Origin: Anaerovibrio sp. JC8
Lineage (GTDB): Bacteria > Bacillota > Negativicutes > Selenomonadales > Selenomonadaceae
NCBI RefSeq assembly: GCF_002100115.1
Contig: NZ_ANBM01000004.1
Location: 1-64,000 of the forward strand
DNA length: 64,000 nt
Direction: 5' to 3'
Position numbers and translations under genes: made by a program. Each line of letters starts with the position of its first letter. The first letter of the stretch is position 1. A model generated the notes under the pieces. The model made no database searches. It saw only the letters and a list, made by a program, of their open reading frames with translations, and was not told the DNA's origin. Of the stretch, positions 45,938 to 57,343 are shown one piece after another.

Positions 45938-46693
45938 TTAAATATCTAAAGCCTCGTTTGCCAAAAAGCCCCTCAGCTTGAACACTGCCTTCGTGTGCAG
46001 CTGACAAATGCGGGCTTCTGATAAATGCAATACCTGGCTGATTTCCTTCATTGTCAATTCTTCGTGATAATATAGGGATATTACCAGACGTTCCTTTTCG
46101 GAAAGCTGGTCTATTGCCTTTGCCAGTGTCTCCTTCATTTCCACTGTTTCCAGGCTCTTTGTCGGGTCATTGACAGCCGAAGTCGCTGTCTCAAATTTTA
46201 TATATTCACCTAAAGGTATGATAGTGGATGCACTCACCTGCTGCTCAAGGGCATGAAGCTGATCCATGGTCACCTCAAGTGCATCTGCCAGCTCCTCATC
46301 CGTAGGGGTGCGTCCCAAATCACCCTCCAGAGTAATAATCGTACTTTCGTATTTCTTTATTTTCTGACGCAAGGAAACAGATATCCAGTCGCGGGCCCGA
46401 AGGTCATCCTTCATGGCTCCGCTGATTCTGATACCTGCATAAGTCTCGAATTTGTTGCCACGACTGTAGTCGTATCGGGAAACTGCGTCCATTAAACCAA
46501 AATACCCGCTGACCTTAAGGTCATCGGTATCTACATGACTTGGCAGACTGATGGCCAGTCTGCCCGCTATGATATTCACCAGTGGGAGATAATGCTCTAC
46601 CAGTTTATTCCTGATCTCTATGTTATCCCTGTCACGGCTGTAATCCATCCAAAGCTGTCTTACCTCCTCAGGATTTAACTCTGTACCCTGCAA
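45938..46693 (-). CDS. fliA: RNA polymerase sigma factor for flagellar genes (sigma-28, FliA/SigD)
   Basis: Sigma-28 directs late flagellar and chemotaxis genes. The 251-residue protein has region 2 (about 25-95, with DDLKVSGYFGLMDAVSRYDY and FETYAGIRISGAMKDDLRARDW, a strong FliA/SigD signature), region 3 (about 115-165) and region 4 (about 200-245) with LTMKEISQVLHLSEARICQLH as its helix-turn-helix. In Bacillus the same gene follows cheD in the fla/che operon. No flgM is in the window. Confidence 0.95.
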   Translation of the reverse strand: MQGTELNPEEVRQLWMDYSRDRDNIEIRNKLVEHYLPLVNIIAGRLAISLPSHVDTDDLKVSGYFGLMDAVSRYDYSRGNKFETYAGIRISGAMKDDLRARDWISVSLRQKIKKYESTIITLEGDLGRTPTDEELADALEVTMDQLHALEQQVSASTIIPLGEYIKFETATSAVNDPTKSLETVEMKETLAKAIDQLSEKERLVISLYYHEELTMKEISQVLHLSEARICQLHTKAVFKLRGFLANEALDI

Positions 46694-46732
46694 CGTCTCT
46701 CACCACCATTATAAAACCATCAAAAAACTACC

Positions 46733-47131
46733 CTATTCCTCCTGATCAGTTGCCACATGACGCAACTCATCAGCCTGAAGCGGAGTAAAGCCCCCGTCTT
46801 CAGGGGAAGCAAATTCATCCTCAGGAGCTTCCTCCCCGGCTTCCTCTGTTTCCGCATCTTCTTCCGGCTTGTCGCTGTCCTCTGCGCCTTCCTCTTCCTC
46901 TATGCCCTCCTTCCAGTTTTCCTCAAACTCGTGAATAATTGAGGCATAACCCAAACGGTCAAAAAGGAAGATTGCTACGTAGACAACTATGCCGGACACT
47001 ATAAAGCTACAAAATGCCCGGCCAAGAACAATCTGCAACCGGGCATCTGATAACAGTCCTGCGACTATAGCAGTCAAAGCTGCTATAGCCCCGCAGACTG
47101 AAGCTGCACCTAGCTTAAACACATTAATCAC
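46733..47131 (-). CDS. hypothetical membrane protein between cheD and sigD
   Basis: This 132-residue protein has two hydrophobic segments (about 8-27 and 38-59), then a strongly acidic tail with many Glu/Asp (about 68-118). Both ends would face the same side, most likely the cytoplasm. I recognise no family. It lies four bases after cheD and 40 bp before sigD, so it is co-transcribed with them; a role in anchoring or regulating chemotaxis proteins is possible but untested. Confidence 0.75.
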   Translation of the reverse strand: MINVFKLGAASVCGAIAALTAIVAGLLSDARLQIVLGRAFCSFIVSGIVVYVAIFLFDRLGYASIIHEFEENWKEGIEEEEGAEDSDKPEEDAETEEAGEEAPEDEFASPEDGGFTPLQADELRHVATDQEE

Positions 47132-47134
47132 CGT

Positions 47135-47620
47135 CTAAATCTCTTTTTCGCCCTTATCAATGGTCTTTACCTTGTAAACACCATTTGACAAATCGATGGA
47201 TACTGTGCGACCATAACTGCCCCCTGTATCTTCACCGATAATAGGAATTCCTAAGCCGGCAAGAATGTCCTTGGCAGCTTGAGCATTTCTTTGCCCCACA
47301 CGCATAATATCTGTAGCGTTGGCAAAGGCAAACATCTGGGCACCACCAGCAATCTTGGCAACCAATCTGCTCTTGGAAGCACCTAACTTGAGCACTTCAT
47401 CCAGCATATCCGGTATACCAGTATCTGCAAACTTTGCCCTGTTTTCGTTAGCTCTGGACTGAGTACTGTCTGGCAACATGATGTGTAGGAGCCCGCCGAC
47501 CTTGGTCTGCGGATCATACAGTGAAATGCCAATACATGAACCAAGTCCATAACTAATTAATGTTGCTGGAGCTGTACCGACTTTTGCATCGGCCATTCCA
47601 ACCTTAACTAATTCTGGCAT
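47135..47620 (-). CDS. cheD: chemoreceptor glutamine deamidase CheD
   Basis: CheD deamidates glutamines in chemoreceptors and in Bacillus also stimulates the phosphatase CheC. The 161-residue protein from ATG 47620 has the catalytic Cys in YGLGSCIGISLYD (about 27-39), the catalytic His in GGLLHIMLPDS and the conserved Thr/Gly-rich IGEDTGGSYGRTV. Frame-compatible sequence upstream lies inside cheC in another frame and is not CheD. The start follows the cheC stop by one base. Confidence 0.95.
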   Translation of the reverse strand: MPELVKVGMADAKVGTAPATLISYGLGSCIGISLYDPQTKVGGLLHIMLPDSTQSRANENRAKFADTGIPDMLDEVLKLGASKSRLVAKIAGGAQMFAFANATDIMRVGQRNAQAAKDILAGLGIPIIGEDTGGSYGRTVSIDLSNGVYKVKTIDKGEKEI

Positions 47621-47621
47621 A

Positions 47622-48239
47622 TCATTCAACTCCCACTGCAGACAGTATAGTTTCCAATGAACCAGGATCAGGTACCAAGAAGAAGTGACCCTTGATACCC
47701 TCATCATCGGTCTTGAACTCAGTCTCAATAACTAATGCGTGGTCACCCATCTGACCAAGCTGAATTAATACTACACTTAAGATAGCACCTGCCATATCCA
47801 TTGCCAATGCCGGAATGGATGGCAACAGTGATATGTTGGTAAAATTGAACAACGCGTTTAAATATGCACCAGAGAGAATATTACCTATTTCCATCAGTGC
47901 CGACTCATCCATGAAGTCAAGCTTCTGGGTATCACCATGTTTCTTGCCCATAAGCATGTCTACAAGATAGAAAGCACTTTCCCGTGGTAACAGGAACAGA
48001 ATATTACTTGGAGCCTTACCATATACTCTAAGGAAAACTCCAACGACCATAACATCAGGTCCACCTACCAGGTCAGGAACATCTCCAAGAGGAACGATTG
48101 ATACTCTTGGAACATTCATATCGATGCGTTTGCTTATAATCTGGGATAAAGCAGTAGCCGAGTTTCCAGCACCAACATTACCAATCTCACGTAGCGCATC
48201 CATCTGGTTAGCAGATAAGCTTGCAACATCATCTGACAT
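47622..48239 (-). CDS. cheC: CheY-phosphate phosphatase CheC
   Basis: CheC removes phosphate from CheY-P and pairs with CheD in Gram-positive adaptation. The 205-residue protein has both phosphatase helices, EIGNVGAGNSATALS near 16-30 and ALMEIGNILSGAYLNAL near 110-126, each with the expected acidic residue and Asn. It lies 20 bp after cheW and next to cheD. Confidence 0.95.
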   Translation of the reverse strand: MSDDVASLSANQMDALREIGNVGAGNSATALSQIISKRIDMNVPRVSIVPLGDVPDLVGGPDVMVVGVFLRVYGKAPSNILFLLPRESAFYLVDMLMGKKHGDTQKLDFMDESALMEIGNILSGAYLNALFNFTNISLLPSIPALAMDMAGAILSVVLIQLGQMGDHALVIETEFKTDDEGIKGHFFLVPDPGSLETILSAVGVE

Positions 48240-48259
48240 ATCTTCACCCCATCCAGAAA

Positions 48260-48727
48260 TTACTCTTCGCCAGTAAGACCAATAATCTCGCTAATGTTAA
48301 GCTGAATAATCAGTCTTCCATCCACCTTGCCAATGCCGGAAATAAATCTGGAATTGGCATCAGTACCGGTTACAGCCCGGGTAGAATCAATATCATCTGC
48401 ATCAATGGTTCTAACCTCGGTTACTGCATCAACCAGCATGCCTACCGAAACCTCGTCCAACTGAACGATAACAATACGTGTATTGGAAGTATATGGTGTA
48501 TCCTCCAGGCCGAGACGACGCTTCAAATCAATTACCGGCAGAACACTACCACGGAGATTAATTACGCCCTTAATAAATTCAGGAGCAAACGGAACTCTGG
48601 TAATATCTGTCAGGCCCTTAATTTCCTGTACATTTAAAATACTGAAACCATATTCTTCATTTCTGAGCTTAAAAGCAACTACCTGAACCTCACCGTCAGA
48701 TACTACCTGTCCTTCTATGTTAGCCAT
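48260..48727 (-). CDS. cheW: chemotaxis adaptor protein CheW
   Basis: CheW couples receptors to CheA. The 155-residue single-domain protein has the conserved FKLRNEEYGFSILNVQEIKG, the receptor-binding APEFIKGVINLRGSVLPVID and a C-terminal ISGIGKVDGRLIIQLNI. It lies 18 bp after cheA. Confidence 0.96.
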   Translation of the reverse strand: MANIEGQVVSDGEVQVVAFKLRNEEYGFSILNVQEIKGLTDITRVPFAPEFIKGVINLRGSVLPVIDLKRRLGLEDTPYTSNTRIVIVQLDEVSVGMLVDAVTEVRTIDADDIDSTRAVTGTDANSRFISGIGKVDGRLIIQLNISEIIGLTGEE

Positions 48728-48745
48728 TTTTCACCCCTCCTATGA

Positions 48746-50821
48746 TTACATCAATGAACTTACGTCCAGGATCATAGCAACATGACCATCACCCAGAACA
48801 GTAGCACCAGCCAGCATCTTCAAACCGGACAGGAGCTTGCCAAGTGTCTTGATAACGATTTCCTGCTGGCCGATGAGGTTATCTACCACGATACCCATCT
48901 TATGATCGCCAACATGTACAACAACTACGAAGATATCCTCTTCGTTGGTGTCCTCACCCTTAGGTACGCTGAGCACCTCACCCAGGCGGGCAATTGGGAT
49001 AATCTCACCACGGAGAACAATAACTTCCTTGTTCTGAACGGTCTTGATATCATCTGGAGTGATGTTAATGGTACTGTCGATAGAACCAAGAGGAATTGCA
49101 TACATCTCGTCCTGAACCTTAACCAGCATTGCCTGGATAATAGCCAGAGTCAATGGCAGCTTGATCTTGAATACAGAACCTTCATCAATCTTGGTCTCAA
49201 CGTCTACGTTACCGCCCAAGGACTCAATCTTGCTGCGAACAACGTCCATACCTACGCCTCGTCCGGATACATCGGTGATAACCTCCGCAGTGGAGAAGCC
49301 TGGCAGGAAGATAAGGCGAACTGCATCTGCATCTGGCAGAGCATCTGCCTCTTCACGGCTGATCATGCCCTTTTCAACGGCCTTGTTACGAATCTTGTCG
49401 GCATTGATACCAGAACCATCATCAGTAACCATAATAACTACGTTGTTACCTTCATGGCGGGCAATGAGGCCAACCTCACCAGTACGAGGCTTACCCTTTG
49501 CTTCACGCTCATCAGGATGCTCAACACCATGGTCAAGGGAGTTACGGAGGAGATGCATCAATGGATCACCGATCTCGTCGATAACGGTACGATCCAGCTC
49601 TGTATCCTCACCCTCGATAGTAAGGTTGATTTCCTTGTTCAGTTCCTTGGTAAGGTCACGGACCATACGAGGGAAGCGGTTGAATACCTGACTAACAGGC
49701 ACCATGCGGACCTTCATAACTACGGACTGGAGATCGGTGGTAACTCTGTCCATCTGCTCCAATGTCTCAGTAAGGTCTGTGAGTCTATGGGTCATACCAA
49801 TCTGCTCGAGGCGAACCTTGTTGGTAACAAGCTCTCCTACCAGATTCATCAGAGTATCAAGCTTTTCAATATCTACACGTACAGACTGACCACCAACATG
49901 AGCCTTCTTGGCATCCTTGGCTGCCGCTTTAGGCTCAGCCTTCTTGGCTGGTGCAGGAGCTGCCTTTGCAGCAGGTGCCGGTGCAGCAGGAGCCGGTGCA
50001 GGAGCTGCCTCAGCGGCTGGTGCAGGAGCAGCTGCCGGAGCTGCTGCCTTTTCAGGATCAAATTCAGTAACATTTGCCACTGTGATCTCAGAGATAGCAG
50101 CAACTGCACTTTCAATAGTCTTGGCATCAGCATCGCTGACGATAATTACCTCGAAGCTGTGGTCGAATTTTTCCTGCTCCAGATCCTCTGCAGGCGGAAC
50201 AGACTTAATCACATCACAGAGCTCATCCAGTGCATTCATAACCATGTAGGAGCGTGCAGACTTCAGAATACAATTCTCGGAAATCTCCACATGTACATGA
50301 TAAGGAACAAGGCCGCTGTTCTTTGCTTCCACGATAACAGTCTTTTCAGTATCGCTGAGTTCAATACCACCCGAAGCCCCGGAGTCAGCCGGTGCCGCTG
50401 CAGGTGCTGCCTCAGCCGGAGCTGCTGCCTCTGCAGATTCACCCTTGGCAATGGCATTAACCTGGCGTACCAAATCAGATACATCCACCAAATCCTCAGA
50501 CTCGCCATTGCTGATGTTCTCTACCATTTCCTGCAAGGTGTCCAGGCACTTGAAAATTACATCTATAATTTCAGGGCTGACCTTCAGCTGTTCCTTGCGG
50601 AGCATATCAAGCAAATTTTCCATATCATGGGTCAACTCAGCTGTCTTTGTGTAACCCATGGTAGCGGACATACCTTTTAAGGTATGTGCATTACGGAAGA
50701 TTTCATTTAAGACGGACAAATCCTCCGGATCATTTTCCAGACTCAGCAGGCCATCATTCAGAGACTGCAAATGTTCCCGCGACTCGTCCAAAAACATTTC
50801 CATGTACTGATTTGTTTCCAT
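48746..50821 (-). CDS. cheA: chemotaxis histidine kinase CheA
   Basis: CheA autophosphorylates in response to receptors and passes phosphate to CheY and CheB. The 691-residue protein has an HPt domain with the phosphorylated His in FRNAHTLKGMSATMGY (about His46), a P2 domain (about 155-255), a long Ala/Pro-rich linker (about 258-305), the P3 dimerisation helices, and the P4 ATPase with N box LLRNSLDHGVEHP, G1 DDGSGIN and G2 SGRGVGMDVV. The P5 CheW-like domain follows (about 555-690). The start at 50821 is 20 bp after the cheB catalytic frame ends. Confidence 0.97.
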   Translation of the reverse strand: METNQYMEMFLDESREHLQSLNDGLLSLENDPEDLSVLNEIFRNAHTLKGMSATMGYTKTAELTHDMENLLDMLRKEQLKVSPEIIDVIFKCLDTLQEMVENISNGESEDLVDVSDLVRQVNAIAKGESAEAAAPAEAAPAAAPADSGASGGIELSDTEKTVIVEAKNSGLVPYHVHVEISENCILKSARSYMVMNALDELCDVIKSVPPAEDLEQEKFDHSFEVIIVSDADAKTIESAVAAISEITVANVTEFDPEKAAAPAAAPAPAAEAAPAPAPAAPAPAAKAAPAPAKKAEPKAAAKDAKKAHVGGQSVRVDIEKLDTLMNLVGELVTNKVRLEQIGMTHRLTDLTETLEQMDRVTTDLQSVVMKVRMVPVSQVFNRFPRMVRDLTKELNKEINLTIEGEDTELDRTVIDEIGDPLMHLLRNSLDHGVEHPDEREAKGKPRTGEVGLIARHEGNNVVIMVTDDGSGINADKIRNKAVEKGMISREEADALPDADAVRLIFLPGFSTAEVITDVSGRGVGMDVVRSKIESLGGNVDVETKIDEGSVFKIKLPLTLAIIQAMLVKVQDEMYAIPLGSIDSTINITPDDIKTVQNKEVIVLRGEIIPIARLGEVLSVPKGEDTNEEDIFVVVVHVGDHKMGIVVDNLIGQQEIVIKTLGKLLSGLKMLAGATVLGDGHVAMILDVSSLM

Positions 50822-50840
50822 TTCTATTCCCCCTGATTAG

Positions 50841-51581
50841 TTATTTTCTAACTGCATTCATAATTGCTTCGGCTATGTTCTGAACAGGCAGGACCTCATC
50901 AGAAATTCCAGCGTCCACAACGGCCTTTGGCATCCCGTACACTACGCAGCTCTCTTGAGCCTCGGCGATAATGTATCCTCCGGCCTTTTTGATTTTCTTC
51001 ATTCCGGCGGTGCCATCACACCCCATGCCGGTCAATATGACGGACACCACGTCACTGCCATACTTAACAACAGAATCAAACATGATGTCTACTGCCGGGC
51101 GGTGGGCCGCCAAAGGTGGGTTCTGATTCAGTGAGATTACTCTTTGTGAACCGTTACCAGTGATCTCCATGTGATAATCGCCTGGAGCTATGTAAACATA
51201 ACCCGGTAAAATTGGCTCATTGTCCTCAGCTTCCTTGACCTTCACCTGAGACATGTCATCCAATCGTTCCGCCAATGATTTGGTGAAACCGGCGGGCATA
51301 TGTTGCACTATTACCATGCCACACGGCATATCTGCCGGCAGCTTGGGAACCACATACTGCAAAGCCTTGGGACCACCTGTAGAGGTGCCTAAAGCAATGA
51401 GCTTGTTGCCTCCGCCGGAGGAACCACTTTTTGCCTGACGCATTTTCAGGTATGGGTTCTCCCTTTTTGCCAGCTTCTCCACAGCGGAGGTATGCTTGGG
51501 CAACATGGAGGCCGTTCTTGAGGTTGCAGTCACGTGAGCCGTTGGCTTTAGGCGACTCGCAACTATTGATGTCGGTGTCAC
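50841..51581 (-). CDS. cheB: CheB, methylesterase (catalytic) part, in a separate frame from its receiver
   Basis: This frame encodes the CheB methylesterase/glutamine deamidase domain: catalytic Ser in ALGTSTGGPKAL, His in IVQHMPAGFT and Asp in LTGMGCDGTAGM. Only a basic linker precedes it; the receiver domain is encoded upstream in another frame (51677-52084). The first in-frame start, GTG 51581, has GGGA directly next to it and no proper Shine-Dalgarno, and ATG 51506 has none either. The same frame is open further up, without a stop, to an A7 run at 51683-51689 inside the receiver gene, so the two parts join by a -1 shift into a protein of 414 residues. See the slippery-site feature. Confidence 0.9.
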   Translation of the reverse strand: MTPTSIVASRLKPTAHVTATSRTASMLPKHTSAVEKLAKRENPYLKMRQAKSGSSGGGNKLIALGTSTGGPKALQYVVPKLPADMPCGMVIVQHMPAGFTKSLAERLDDMSQVKVKEAEDNEPILPGYVYIAPGDYHMEITGNGSQRVISLNQNPPLAAHRPAVDIMFDSVVKYGSDVVSVILTGMGCDGTAGMKKIKKAGGYIIAEAQESCVVYGMPKAVVDAGISDEVLPVQNIAEAIMNAVRK

Positions 51582-51676
51582 TCCCTTTTTAGGTGCAGTA
51601 ACACCTTTTCTTTCAAGTATATTTATTCGCTCTAAATTCGCTGCTTCCTGCTTTTTTCCTAGAATATTATTATTTA

Positions 51677-52084
51677 TTACAATTTTTTTACTTTTGCAGT
51701 AGCCGCGTTTCGACTTTTTTCGAGAATTTCATCTTTTATGGTGTCAATTTTGGAGACTGAACCACCTGCTTTGGTAATGAAATCAACGGCTCCCAGCTGA
51801 AGTGCCCTGATGGTTTCGTCAGCATCCTTTTTGGTAAGGCTGCTGAGCATGACCACAGGCGTTGGGCATCCCTCCATTATCATTTCCAATGCCTCAAGTC
51901 CGTTCATAAGCGGCATGTTTACATCCATGGTCACCAAATCAGGCTTCAGCCTAAAGACCATTTTTACTGCTTCACTGCCGTCCGAGGCAGTCCCCACTAC
52001 CTCAAAATCAGGAGTCTCCGTAAACAAGTCTGATAAAACCTTTCTCATGAAAGAAGAATCATCAGCAATTATTACGCGAATCAT
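51677..52084 (-). CDS. cheB: CheB, receiver domain part
   Basis: This 135-residue receiver has the phosphorylation Asp in VTMDVNMPLMNGLEAL (about Asp54), the acidic pair in IIADDSSFMRKVL and the conserved Lys in DFITKAGGSVSKI. VVMLSSLTKKDADETIRALQ followed by GAVDFITKAGG is the pattern of CheB receivers rather than CheY. It ends after KVKKL, two codons past an A7 run. A separate cheY with normal length lies at 60890-61252. The piece is thus the N-terminal half of CheB and not an independent CheY. Confidence 0.88.
   Translation of the reverse strand: MIRVIIADDSSFMRKVLSDLFTETPDFEVVGTASDGSEAVKMVFRLKPDLVTMDVNMPLMNGLEALEMIMEGCPTPVVMLSSLTKKDADETIRALQLGAVDFITKAGGSVSKIDTIKDEILEKSRNAATAKVKKL
51683..51689 (-). 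other. candidate -1 frameshift site in cheB
   Basis: On the minus strand the receiver frame reads GTA AAA AAA TTG TAA, so the heptamer A AAA AAA is in the X XXY YYZ phase needed for -1 slippage and a stop follows one codon later. After a -1 shift the frame reads ATT GTA ATA AAT and stays open through to the CheB catalytic domain. I see no strong downstream hairpin and no clear internal Shine-Dalgarno, so efficiency is unknown. A one-base indel in a homopolymer is the alternative. Confidence 0.55.
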
Positions 52085-52114
52085 AATGACACCCCCTCAG
52101 TTTTGTAAATTCCC

Positions 52115-52795
52115 TTACACTTTTTCAATCCCCTTGGCCAAACCTCTCCGCTGCAGATCGAAGATAAATTTTACAAGGCGGTTTTGGGTATTTCTGTCAA
52201 TTGACAAAAATTCTGTACCTATATGATAAACTTTTTCGCCATTAACATCAATTTCAGCACAACGGGCCACACGGCACATCAGCTGCAGCAGACCAATGTT
52301 GGGGATATCATCCAGCTCAATGGCCACCTTGCTGTCCACCGGCAGCGGTCGCTTAAACGCTATACAAATACCACCGCCGCTGATATCAACGGTATAGGTA
52401 ATCTCCATGGGTTCAAGGGCTCCCTCAGCGTTGACAGGACGCACCACCACTGGCTGGGATGTCTTAACACGGACAAACTCGCGATGCTGGGCCTTTTCGA
52501 CTTCCGCAGGTCTGCTGATATACCACACTGGAATATTTTCTATGCCTTTATCCATAAAGACGGCACGGAAAATATAAAAACAGCGCTCATCTATAACCTT
52601 GCAAATCACATTGGTACCTGGCTCCGGAATGAGTGGACGATGCTTATCGTCTATGGGCATTGCCAGAACCATGTAATTATCTTTTATGTCTTCAATTCTG
52701 CTGTTGTAAAAACGGGTATCATCCATAAGTGACACCTGTGCTCGCTGTCCAAATTTAAGCACCTTGTCAGCCTTGACAATTTCTGCTCTTTTCAT
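52115..52795 (-). CDS. PilZ domain flagellar brake protein (YcgR/YpfA type)
   Basis: This 226-residue protein has an N-terminal YcgR-like domain (about 1-95, with TNVICKVIDERCFYIFRAVF) and a C-terminal PilZ domain (about 97-215) containing the c-di-GMP-binding motif RRExR-like QHREFVRVKTSQP and VDISGGGICIAFKRPL. On binding c-di-GMP such proteins slow the flagellar motor. It lies between flhG and cheB. ATG 52795 is preferred (AAAGGA seven bases upstream) over an earlier in-frame ATG at 52816. Confidence 0.85.
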   Translation of the reverse strand: MKRAEIVKADKVLKFGQRAQVSLMDDTRFYNSRIEDIKDNYMVLAMPIDDKHRPLIPEPGTNVICKVIDERCFYIFRAVFMDKGIENIPVWYISRPAEVEKAQHREFVRVKTSQPVVVRPVNAEGALEPMEITYTVDISGGGICIAFKRPLPVDSKVAIELDDIPNIGLLQLMCRVARCAEIDVNGEKVYHIGTEFLSIDRNTQNRLVKFIFDLQRRGLAKGIEKV

Positions 52796-52830
52796 AGTAT
52801 GTCCTTTCCGAGGCATCGTATTTAAGAAGC

Positions 52831-53739
52831 TTATTTCTTAAACAGTCTTCTCAGGAATCCGCGCCAGCCAAGCTTCACCTTTTCCTGGCGTCCGTTAACA
52901 AGACCATTGGCAATAGATGCAATGCATCTGGCAGATAAAGCTTCAGGATACCCTGACATTACAGGCACCTGTGACCTTACCGACTTCACCATCATCTTGT
53001 CATCATATATATATCCAAGGCACTCCACGGAAAGCTTCAAAAACTTTTCTGCAGTCCTAGACAAAGTGCCCACCACTTCACGTATCTCAGGCTCATCAAT
53101 TACCCGATTTACGATAAGCTTCAGGTTTGGATTCTCAGTTATTCTGCTGTAGCCCTTCATAACGGCATAAGCATCAGTTAATGATGTAGGCTCCGGTGTG
53201 GTTACAAGAAGCACCTCATCGGCTGAAACAATAAAATCAAGCACGTTCTTGCCAATACCGGCACCGGTATCCACCAATATAATATCTGCCCAATCAGCAC
53301 AGGCCTCCAGCTTGCTGAACAGCATTTCCCGCTCCATCGCGGAAAGCTCCCCCGCATGCTCCATGCCGGAGCCGCCGGAAATATAGCTGACTCCATAAGG
53401 GCCTCTGAGGAGAACATCCTCCAGGGTCACATCCGGATCAAGCAAATTCATAAGAGTCACTCTGGATGAGGTTCCCAGCAGGATATCCACATTGGCCATA
53501 CCCATGTCTGCATCTATTATAATAACCCGCTTGCCCATGTTGCCAAGGGCAATTGCCAAATTAACCGTGAGATTTGTCTTGCCCACACCACCCTTGCCGC
53601 TGGTAATGGCAATAGTCCGTGGGCCAATAGATTCCGCCTGTTGTTTTATATTTACCTCAGTCTCCCTGATGGCAGGCGGTTCAGGATAAGTATTCTTATC
53701 CTCCACAAGGCGACGGAGATTTGCTGCCTGATCATTCAT
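52831..53739 (-). CDS. flhG: flagellar number regulator FlhG (MinD-like ATPase)
   Basis: FlhG (YlxH) is a MinD-type ATPase that, with FlhF, sets flagellar number and position. The 302-residue protein has an N-terminal segment with AANLRRLVEDK, the type seen to activate FlhF (DQAANLRRLV), then the deviant Walker A ITSGKGGVGKTNLTVNLA (about 44-61), IIDADMGMANVDILLG and DTGAGIGKNVLDFI. A basic hydrophobic C-terminal helix (LGWRGFLRRLFKK) resembles the membrane-targeting sequence of MinD proteins. It lies six bases after flhF. Confidence 0.94.
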   Translation of the reverse strand: MNDQAANLRRLVEDKNTYPEPPAIRETEVNIKQQAESIGPRTIAITSGKGGVGKTNLTVNLAIALGNMGKRVIIIDADMGMANVDILLGTSSRVTLMNLLDPDVTLEDVLLRGPYGVSYISGGSGMEHAGELSAMEREMLFSKLEACADWADIILVDTGAGIGKNVLDFIVSADEVLLVTTPEPTSLTDAYAVMKGYSRITENPNLKLIVNRVIDEPEIREVVGTLSRTAEKFLKLSVECLGYIYDDKMMVKSVRSQVPVMSGYPEALSARCIASIANGLVNGRQEKVKLGWRGFLRRLFKK

Positions 53740-53745
53740 AACTTC

Positions 53746-55266
53746 TTACCTCAGCAGCATATCTGCCAGCTTGGTGAAGCTGGCCGGAGTAATATCATCG
53801 GGAACGCTCTGTCCGTTGGTAACATAGGAAAGAGCAATCTTTCTCTTGTAAAGAAGATTCATTACTATCCCCAAAGAACTGGTCTCATCGGTCTTGGTGA
53901 AAATAACCCTGTCCGGTTCACAAGGCATGAAACGGTTCAGGATTTCCTCAGCATCCCTATTTTTGGTAGTGGAGCTGAGTACAAGATGCTTTTCAATATC
54001 CTTGTTTGACTTGAAAAGACCAATAAGCTCTTTCATCTGAAACTCGTTGTACTGGCTTCTGCCAGCTGTATCAATAAGGATAAGCTGCTTGTCTGAATGC
54101 TTTTCTATAGCCTGCTGCAAAGCCTCGGGAGAATAAACAATCTCCAGCGGCAAGCCCAAAATATCCGAATAGGTCTTGAGCTGTTCAACAGCAGAGATAC
54201 GATAGGTATCTGCGGTAATAAGAGCGGCACTTACGCCACCCTCCAAAACAAATTTGGCGGCTATCTTGGCAAGGGTTGTAGTCTTGCCAACACCTGTCGG
54301 GCCAATAAGAGCCACAATTTTGGGTTTATCAGAATAAAGTGTGATGCCCGATGCCACCCTGACTGTCTTTTTAAGGAATTTTTCCAGAGTACGATGGGCT
54401 TTTTCTGAGGTCTTGTCCTCCAGAATCTCCGCACCGGACATTCTGCGGATCATATCCTGAATGATTTTTTCATCAATATCACAGTCCCTCAAGGCCTGCT
54501 GAAGTGTAATTTCCTCATCCTCAGAGGCTCCAGCCTTGCCCATACGGGCCAGCATCTCCTTCATTTCATCCAATTCATTCTGCAGGGACTGGATAGTTTC
54601 CTGGTCATCCTCGACCTGCTTCGCAGCCTTTACAAAGGCTTCTTCCTTGGCAGCAGCCTCTGCCATTGCTGCCATCTCCGCATCGGAAAATTCAGGCTCC
54701 TTGGCCGGCTCCGGCTTCTTTTCCATAGGCCTTATAATGCGTCCTACAGTTATCTGATTATCATCAGCAGGAGCTGCTGCAGCTCCAGTGCCTCCCTCTG
54801 CCGCCTTGATGCGGTCAAGGGAGGATAAAATATCCTCAAATGTGGACTGAATCTGTGGACCCTGGGCATTATGGCCGGTAGTCTGTACAGCATCATACTG
54901 GGCTGCCCTTTGCTGGGCAGCATCCACGCTAAACTGGGTGCCAGCCGTCTGATAGGATGAAACTGCCGCCTTTCGTGGAACGATTGGCGGTATCACCGGC
55001 TCAGGAGCAGGAGGTGCCATAGCAGGAGCAGGAGCTGGAGCTGGTGCTGCCGCAGCCTTTGGTGCAGATGCTCTCTTAACCGGCTTCTGCTGTGGTTCAT
55101 CCTCCACAGCAGCAATTACTTCAACTACTTCCTTGCTGCCAAAGCCAAGAAGGCCACCCTTCTTGGACCTGGTTGTATGTAAAATAACTGCATCTATACC
55201 AAGCTCAGCCTTGACATTGGCCATGGCCTCCTTCAGTGTAGGTGCCTTAAATGTTTTAATCCTCAA
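53746..55266 (-). CDS. flhF: flagellar biosynthesis GTPase FlhF
   Basis: FlhF is the SRP-family GTPase that places the flagellum. The 506-residue protein starts MRIKTFKAPTLKEAMANVKA and has a long Ala/Pro-rich and acidic region (about 70-245), the N domain (about 250-305) and the G domain (about 310-506) with G1 GPTGVGKTTTLAKI, LITADTYRISAVEQL, LIDTAGRSQYNEF and KTDE. It is longer than the Bacillus form because of the linker. It ends six bases before flhG and starts one base after flhA. Confidence 0.96.
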   Translation of the reverse strand: MRIKTFKAPTLKEAMANVKAELGIDAVILHTTRSKKGGLLGFGSKEVVEVIAAVEDEPQQKPVKRASAPKAAAAPAPAPAPAMAPPAPEPVIPPIVPRKAAVSSYQTAGTQFSVDAAQQRAAQYDAVQTTGHNAQGPQIQSTFEDILSSLDRIKAAEGGTGAAAAPADDNQITVGRIIRPMEKKPEPAKEPEFSDAEMAAMAEAAAKEEAFVKAAKQVEDDQETIQSLQNELDEMKEMLARMGKAGASEDEEITLQQALRDCDIDEKIIQDMIRRMSGAEILEDKTSEKAHRTLEKFLKKTVRVASGITLYSDKPKIVALIGPTGVGKTTTLAKIAAKFVLEGGVSAALITADTYRISAVEQLKTYSDILGLPLEIVYSPEALQQAIEKHSDKQLILIDTAGRSQYNEFQMKELIGLFKSNKDIEKHLVLSSTTKNRDAEEILNRFMPCEPDRVIFTKTDETSSLGIVMNLLYKRKIALSYVTNGQSVPDDITPASFTKLADMLLR

Positions 55267-55267
55267 T

Positions 55268-57343
55268 TTAAATCTTCACCACCCCAATAATCTGTATCTC
55301 TACAGTTTGTTCTATCTCAGCATGAGACAGAACGATAATCCCAGGAACGGACCTTTCAACCAACTTTCTGAAATACAAGCGCACAGTCGGGCTTGTAAGA
55401 GCAATTGGCTGATACCCCATGTCCGTCAGCTTCTGCAGCTCTCCTCCCAAGGAAGTCAGAATCTTCTGCATGGTATCAGGATCCAGACTTACATAGGAAC
55501 CACGGTCGGTGCGCTGAACAGCACCGGCAATGCGGTTCTCAATGGTCGGGTCAAGAGTAATGCATGTAAGCTGATTATTCTGGGTATATTGCTGAGTGAT
55601 TTGTCTAGACAATGCATGTCTTACATACTCAGTTAAAATCTCAGTATCCTTGGTGGCACGGGCATAATCCGCCAATACCTCCAAAATAGTGGCCATATCT
55701 CTGATGGACACACGCTCCCGCAGGAGATTTGCCAATACCTTCTGAATTTCACCCACATTCATGAGCTCAGGCACAATCTCGTCCACAAGGGTAGAGTTTG
55801 TCTTTCTGGCATTATCAATAATGTTCTGGGTCTCCTGACGGCCGAGGATTTCATCGGCATGTGCCTTGATAACCTCTGTCAGATGGGTTGCCAGAACGGA
55901 TACGGCATCTACTACAGTATAACCATTCAACTCAGCCTGCTCGCGGGAAGCCTCCGGAATCCAAAGTGCCGGCAAGCCAAAAGCAGGTTCCTGTGTCTCG
56001 ATTCCCTGAATCTCCTCAAACACAGTACCTGAATTCATCGCTAAGAAGTGGTCTAGTAATAATTCGCCCTTTGCTATCTCAATTCCTTTTAACTTTATAA
56101 TATATGCATTAGGTTTTATCTGAATATTATCGCGAATACGGATGGTAGGTACCACCAAACCCAGTTCCAATGCGCACTGACGTCGAATCATAACAATTCG
56201 GTCAAGAAGGTCACCACCCTGTCCTGTATCAACCAAAGGAATCAAGCTGTAACCAATTTCCAGCTCCATAGGGTCAACCTGCAGGAGTGAAACAATATTT
56301 TCCGGCTTGGTAGCCTCGGTTTTGCTCTTTTCCTTCTTCTGAACAGTGGCAGTTTCCTCCACCTGCTTTTTCCCCTGGGTCTTCTGATATCCAATGAAAG
56401 CACATACAGCAGCCAAAATGCTGAATGGCATACCAGGCAGGCCCGGAACCAGCGCCAATGCCAGAAGCACGCCGGCAACTATAAAGAATACGCGATCGTG
56501 ACGGCCCAGCTGGGTTACCAGATCATGACCAAGATTGCTGTCGGAGGCAGCACGGGTAACTATGATACCGGTTGCTGTGGAAATCAGCAGGGCCGGAATC
56601 TGGTTTACCAGACCCTCACCTACTGTCAGCAGGGTGTAGTTGGACAAGGCCTGCTCCACAGTCATATTGCGCTGCACCATACCAATGACAAAGCCGCCGG
56701 TGATGTTTATCAAAATAATGATGATAGCCGCAATGGCATCACCCTTTACGAACTTACTGGCACCATCCATGGCTCCGTAGAAGTCAGCCTCACGCTGAAT
56801 CTTCAAACGCCGCTCACTGGCCTCGGCATCAGTAATGGCACCCTGATTAAGGTCGGCATCGATGGACATCTGCTTACCAGGCATTGCGTCCAGTGTGAAT
56901 CGAGCGGATACCTCGGCAACTCGCTCGGCACCCTTGGTAATAACGATGAACTGAATGATAATCAGAATTATGAAGATAATGAAACCTACTACTGCATTAC
57001 CACCGACTACGAAGTTACCGAAGGACATAATAACCTCTCCGGCGTAGCCTTCCAGCAGAATCAATCGGGTTGAAGATACGTTCAGCGCCAATCGGAACAG
57101 GGTGGTTATGAGCAACAGGGACGGGAACACGGATAAATCCAGTGCCTCCACATTATATATAGCCGCCATAACTACTATCAGGGCCAGGGTTATGTTCATA
57201 CACAACAGCAGGTCCAACAGCATGGTTGGCAGCGGTATAATCATCATTACAACGATGGTAACAATACCTACTGCTACCATTACGTCGCTATATTTAGTTA
57301 AAAAACTGCCCTTTTCCTGGGCAGCCGTTTCGGGAGCTGCCAT
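55268..57343 (-). CDS. flhA: flagellar export gate protein FlhA
   Basis: FlhA forms the nonameric ring of the flagellar type III export gate. The 691-residue protein has about eight membrane segments in the first 330 residues, the conserved FHIPEP-type cytoplasmic loop (AEVSARFTLDAMPGKQMSID at about 140-160, with DADLNQGAITDAEA), and a large soluble C-terminal domain that docks chaperone-substrate complexes. It lies 37 bp after flhB. Confidence 0.97.
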   Translation of the reverse strand: MAAPETAAQEKGSFLTKYSDVMVAVGIVTIVVMMIIPLPTMLLDLLLCMNITLALIVVMAAIYNVEALDLSVFPSLLLITTLFRLALNVSSTRLILLEGYAGEVIMSFGNFVVGGNAVVGFIIFIILIIIQFIVITKGAERVAEVSARFTLDAMPGKQMSIDADLNQGAITDAEASERRLKIQREADFYGAMDGASKFVKGDAIAAIIIILINITGGFVIGMVQRNMTVEQALSNYTLLTVGEGLVNQIPALLISTATGIIVTRAASDSNLGHDLVTQLGRHDRVFFIVAGVLLALALVPGLPGMPFSILAAVCAFIGYQKTQGKKQVEETATVQKKEKSKTEATKPENIVSLLQVDPMELEIGYSLIPLVDTGQGGDLLDRIVMIRRQCALELGLVVPTIRIRDNIQIKPNAYIIKLKGIEIAKGELLLDHFLAMNSGTVFEEIQGIETQEPAFGLPALWIPEASREQAELNGYTVVDAVSVLATHLTEVIKAHADEILGRQETQNIIDNARKTNSTLVDEIVPELMNVGEIQKVLANLLRERVSIRDMATILEVLADYARATKDTEILTEYVRHALSRQITQQYTQNNQLTCITLDPTIENRIAGAVQRTDRGSYVSLDPDTMQKILTSLGGELQKLTDMGYQPIALTSPTVRLYFRKLVERSVPGIIVLSHAEIEQTVEIQIIGVVKI

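Follow-up and report, generated by a model that had tools for sequence, protein, structure and literature searches.

Does the cheB gene of the rumen-type bacterium Anaerovibrio sp. JC8, which is divided between two reading frames at a run of seven As, yield two proteins through programmed slippage, or is it an ordinary gene whose frame has been broken in the organism or in the record? The locus lies in a window of 64 000 nucleotides, the whole stretch of DNA that was analysed, and three features define the problem.

51677..52084, minus strand: cheB receiver half, an ORF of 135 residues with a TAA stop just after the A7 run; Response_reg (PF00072), E = 7.2e-24
51683..51689, minus strand: A7 run (T7 on the plus strand) in the phase GT A AAA AAA TTG; one A short of the A8 of the five closest relative loci
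50841..51683, minus strand: second part of cheB (linker and methylesterase), read in the -1 frame through 280 codons to a stop; CheB_methylest (PF01339), E = 1.2e-67 for 50841-51581

The divided gene

The preliminary description of this DNA placed the end of the receiver ORF two codons beyond the heptamer at 51683-51689, in the exact phase for -1 slippage, and held the -1 frame to be open for 280 codons to the end of the methylesterase domain, with a fused length of 414 residues. The minus-strand frames agree with this. The seven As at 51689-51683 read GTA AAA AAA TTG TAA, which sets A_AAA_AAA in the phase that -1 slippage requires; from 51683 onwards the -1 frame has 280 open codons before the TAA at 50843-50841. 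The shifted product would comprise 134 + 280 = 414 residues. Among the five closest loci, L005-L007 and L009 have a cheB of this same length, and the fifth (L008) encodes 413 residues. According to Pfam the CheB domain set, receiver plus methylesterase, is complete in the focal genome but is spread across two frames. We concur that the methylesterase half lacks a credible start of its own. The first ATG, GTG or TTG start in the ORF list for this half is the GTG at 51581, which is not a good start since a GGGA abuts it with zero spacing; judged by eye it is not kept in L005, the one relative checked, and it was rejected as an independent start.

A mechanical ORF list covering 301 kb holds 49 A7 runs in ORFs of at least 150 residues, 21 of them in the same slippage phase. 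The heptamer by itself does not exceed chance; a break within a conserved gene does.

Origin of the frame break

The best cheB match in every one of the other 15 genomes of the genus lies in a single open frame of 404-436 residues without stops, against 295 residues in the focal genome. The five closest loci, L005-L009, carry GTA AAA AAA ATT, that is A8, at the site where the focal record has one A fewer. None of the 11 other aligned loci, ten from the genus and one (L018) from a neighbour genus, has a run of seven or eight there, from which we take the A run not to be a genus-wide feature. Alignment of the site in relatives had been set beforehand as the test that could refute the proposal of a functional split, and it revealed in-frame cheB genes lacking the A7. 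On this comparison the break is best described as an ordinary one-base contraction from A8 to A7, whether real or technical. The alternatives listed in the preliminary description, namely a fixed indel, an A7/A8 switch and an assembly error, all fit such a difference and so stand; its headline proposal of recoding is not supported.

We lean slightly towards a real slipped-strand mutation, a class in which we include the less probable phase-variable form. The methylesterase half still looks constrained, with dN/dS values of 0.11-0.18 between the focal genome and four relatives and of 0.09-0.12 among those relatives, and the break would therefore be recent if it is not technical. In a comparison of six species the focal linker alone has a K to E replacement, and this together with the slightly higher focal dN/dS could mean an older break. 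Contractions of this kind are ordinary events, since a T8 to T7 slip in flhA of Campylobacter coli is given a value of 3e-4 in the available text of one study (PMC2831843).

An error in the record, the organism itself having A8 and an unbroken cheB, is possible, if rather less likely. Matching 480 ORFs from relatives to 694 kb of the focal genome gave candidates that include three apparent homopolymer frameshifts, cheB among them, all at runs of seven in the focal record; the reverse search produced two candidates in 323. The 480 ORFs were drawn from three relatives and some focal genes were counted more than once. The forward scan returned six rows, comprising cheB twice, a gene for a YhgA-like putative transposase, a membrane protein gene, one antisense case and a row at C4:64651 near a gene end, which was not read. 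One of the two reverse rows was read, and the relative's gene there is open from its own start. Four earlier scans had returned 4, 3, 6 and 5 candidate rows, among which one YhgA-like gene and two likely antisense ORFs were read besides cheB. Apparent frameshifts may thus be somewhat commoner in the focal genome than in its relatives, and cheB otherwise looks intact, as a record error would have it. Against such an error, nearly all of the remaining matched ORFs show no frame change, the run-length spectrum on contig C4 is normal, and the YhgA-like gene, one of the three cases, could decay naturally. Of the three cases, the cheB run is one shorter than in relatives, the YhgA-like run is one longer (T7 against T6), and the third was assessed by its frame change alone. 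General under-calling of homopolymers is unsupported on C4, where 22 A or T runs of at least eight in 302 kb compare with 22 in 340 kb and 16 in 220 kb in relatives.

Two of these genes may be noted for themselves. The YhgA-like gene (PF04754, which we take to be the Rpn family), at C4:163157 (L090:19157), is frameshifted at a T7 and has a 98-99% identical open copy in a relative. The membrane protein gene at C5:209993 (L179:9993) has no Pfam match and shows an apparent T7 frameshift with respect to a relative.

A mutator strain was considered as the cause and set aside, as mutS and mutL are both present, open and above curated cut-offs.

Phase variation, in which reversible slips between A8 and A7 would toggle CheB, and hence adaptation, within populations, appears improbable. 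It has precedents in swrA of Bacillus subtilis and flhA of C. coli, where a run of eight or nine A or T lies in a motility gene and a change of one breaks the frame (PMC2831843, in the part available). The tract is A8 in the five close loci and A7 in the focal record, a difference seen between species only, and with mutS and mutL present and open nothing points to a mutator instead. The cheB tract differs from both precedents, however, in that it occupies codons 132-134 of 414, away from the 5' end, is absent from the 11 more distant loci, and is known in its short form from one record sequence. It is also no longer than 11 other A runs of eight or nine in ORFs on the same contig.

Functional -1 recoding at A_AAA_AAA, ribosomal or transcriptional, which would give both a receiver and a fused CheB, is very improbable. 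The heptamer is exactly in phase and the -1 frame is open to the gene end, but neither the site nor the frame break is conserved in relatives, and no stimulator adjoins the site. The earlier remark that no stable structure is visible downstream holds for the 78 nt directly 3' of the run, which fold no better than shuffled sequences (z = -0.01). A stretch of 136 nt does fold better than chance (z = -3.19), mostly owing to a hairpin that lies 78 nt downstream.

51574-51605, focal cheB linker: hairpin GGTGTTACT...AGTGACACC; second arm changed in the closest relative (by eye)

A hairpin at that distance is too far away for the usual -1 stimulator, and by eye there is no Shine-Dalgarno-like stimulator upstream. 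Functional transcriptional slippage is associated with runs of about nine A or T, and this run has seven. The run length prone to slippage varies among bacteria, and in the available text of PMC1088944 a large share of the genomes studied show selection against such runs at a length of nine nucleotides. The dnaX genes of Escherichia coli and Thermus likewise carry an A-rich slippery run inside the coding sequence, and produce two proteins by ribosomal frameshifting or by transcriptional slippage at A9 (PMC1088944 and PMC5009743, both as far as accessible). Focal cheB is unlike dnaX in having no adjacent structure, a run of only seven and relatives that are in frame throughout. The proposal that slippage makes two CheB forms is thus not supported, although slippage at the A7 might still yield some full-length CheB. 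The split gene adds to the homopolymer frameshifts of motility genes and should not be annotated as a recoding site.

A conserved element in the cheB linker

We consider that the linker matters more than the split, because it contains a candidate regulatory DNA signal that is nearly fixed inside a coding region across the genus.

51618..51651, minus strand: conserved element, predicted SigH-type promoter, with AGGA at 51649-51646, a 17-nt spacer and GAAT at 51628-51625; reads towards cheA

The element begins 32 nt downstream of the A run. Its consensus is GCAGGAAGnnnnnnATTTAAAGCGAATwAATAT, from which the focal genome departs by one letter (K to E) and L015 by one (K to R). Comparison of cheB from 14 relatives gave 165 columns with an invariant residue and a choice of codons, and in 14 of these the codon is invariant; L007, 96% identical to L006, was left out, and L016 was missed by the script's motif test (one of 15). 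Ten of those 14 columns fall in the linker at columns 139-155, where ten of 11 are codon-fixed against four of 154 elsewhere (Fisher P = 3e-12, which is only a guide since the sequences are related and the stretch was picked after the data had been seen). The long form occurs in all 16 genomes of the genus, in one of two of the neighbour genus and in none of 171 others of the family, with one copy per genome; the search pattern was modelled on the copies already known and tolerated no mismatch, and many of the searched genomes are incomplete. In other genera the strict form was absent from the cheB linker in all 12 readable loci (L021-L033 without L023), and L030 has one match elsewhere in the gene. 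A dispersed repeat was discounted, as the focal genome contains a single exact copy.

The linker also encodes two conserved protein motifs, NLKRINI..E(R/K) and KRENPxL, at 51438-51655, with looser forms in other genera. One may guess that its AT-rich composition favours slip-prone runs.

Mapped promoters are available from Sporomusa sphaeroides, which we take to be another Negativicute. SigH (Spo0H) motifs at 322 transcription starts in that organism consist of AGGA and GAAT with 17-18 nt between them, as given in the accessible part of PMC12456013, and the cheB linker has in common with these promoters the AGGA, a spacer of exactly 17 nt and the GAAT. The accessible part of a second source, PMC3364868, gives no SigH consensus. 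The cheB element is unlike the Sporomusa promoters in lying inside a coding sequence, in having near-fixed letters, in its position upstream of chemotaxis genes and in being predicted only. The focal genome encodes SigH itself (TIGR02859, 368.5 bits against a cut-off of 294.8).

Genomic counts are consistent with this assignment. When GCAGGA and GAAT were sought in 1.65 Mb, spacers of 17 and 18 nt formed the peak (22 and 26 matches), while every other spacer between 10 and 25 nt gave 2-12, and there was one each at 17 and 18 nt in the reversed control; related contigs were counted repeatedly in these figures. A same-strand ORF start lies within 150 nt downstream of RCAGGA-N14-16-RCGAATA at 20 of 30 loci, compared with three of 30 when the opposite strand is examined and 76 of 600 for positions drawn at random. 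The genes behind such sites include one for a CheW-receiver protein (CheV-type) in L167, sepF in L146 and, in L164, a receptor-like gene with Cache and HAMP domains that is cut at the locus end. A looser form, GCAGGA-N4-24-GCGAATA, was found in 58 of 60 relatives, above the reversed control in most though not all, and on account of this excess the SigH reading was pursued. The 64-kb window itself has two other loose matches, against two in the reversed control.

We infer from the letters, the spacing and these counts an intragenic SigH-type promoter that would feed cheA, cheW, cheC, cheD and the sigma-factor gene behind them. It is unlikely, by comparison, that the element is kept only as a protein motif (KKQEAxNLKRINI) or an RNA element. 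By eye, a similar KR(I/V)xxP can be recognised in the CheB linkers of other genera without the DNA form, and part of the spacer is conserved as well, although a promoter by itself would not require it. Against this stand the fixation of codons as well as residues in the stretch, chosen afterwards as it was, the fit of the letters and their distance to SigH promoters, and the tendency of comparable sites to precede starts on the same strand.

The chemotaxis operon behind the linker

Downstream of cheB the order is cheA, cheW, cheC, cheD, an ORF of 132 residues and a gene of the sigma-70 family.

48746..50821, minus strand: cheA, the first gene downstream of cheB
48260..48727, minus strand: cheW (Pfam and ORF list)
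47622..48239, minus strand: cheC (Pfam and ORF list)
47135..47728, minus strand: cheD, ORF as listed; the true start is probably further in
45938..46693, minus strand: sigma-70 family protein behind the che genes (Sigma70_r2, r3 and r4)

From gene order and recall we presume the last to be the flagellar sigma factor FliA/SigD. Upstream of cheB lie a PilZ/YcgR-like gene and a ParA/MinD-type ATPase gene, taken as flhG.

We think it probable that the locus holds a one-gene cheB whose A8 tract is one A short, the break being young or technical and not programmed, with a SigH-type promoter alongside. In this arrangement cheB would normally be one gene encoding receiver, linker and methylesterase, and with the linker A8 one A short normal reading would halt after the receiver. 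If the break is real, the cell would make mostly the receiver fragment and little or no fused CheB, with two other cheB-type genes presumably remaining. The predicted linker promoter would read into the second half of cheB and then from cheA to the sigma gene, so that cheA, cheW, cheC, cheD and the sigma gene should stay transcribed whatever the fate of cheB. Lying beyond the A run, this promoter would confine the effect of a frameshift to CheB, spare the genes behind it and so limit polarity. A further step, in which a SigH promoter inside cheB uncouples cheA-cheW-cheC-cheD-fliA from CheB and the slip-prone tract upstream serves to switch off CheB, and with it adaptation, without silencing the operon, strikes us as distinctly improbable.

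The fla/che operon of B. subtilis has internal promoters before sigD. The element in cheB resembles this in that it would add a promoter towards the end of a long flagellar operon and could raise the flagellar sigma factor, but it involves another sigma factor and another place, inside cheB. The lineage is not known to sporulate; the assignment would suggest that SigH, best known from sporulation, here feeds chemotaxis genes and a sigma gene. Among the best-listed matches from the open-access literature we found no report, for the Anaerovibrio group, of a split cheB or of a promoter inside cheB.

Within 45938-57343 the receiver half of cheB, pilZ, flhF and, in part, flhG are more diverged at synonymous sites than the genes from cheA to cheD. 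This step sits near the linker element, but flhA is low as well. Slower change of the genes downstream of the promoter through higher expression is a weak explanation, since the upstream flhA is slow too; recombination may account for the higher divergence upstream of the linker.

A second conserved stretch was observed at the junction with cheA.

50762..50837, minus strand: junction of cheB with cheA, including the first 20 codons of cheA; nucleotides almost constant in 17 loci despite differences in the 3' end of cheB

In those first 20 codons, ten of 17 testable columns have an invariant codon, whereas for the part of cheA compared the figure is 29 of 220; the junction is perhaps a conserved translation start or RNA-binding site.

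Elsewhere in the genome there are two other CheB methylesterase matches, two CheR matches and 20 MCP-domain matches. A match to the MCP signalling domain at C14:51946-52359 contains one TAA.
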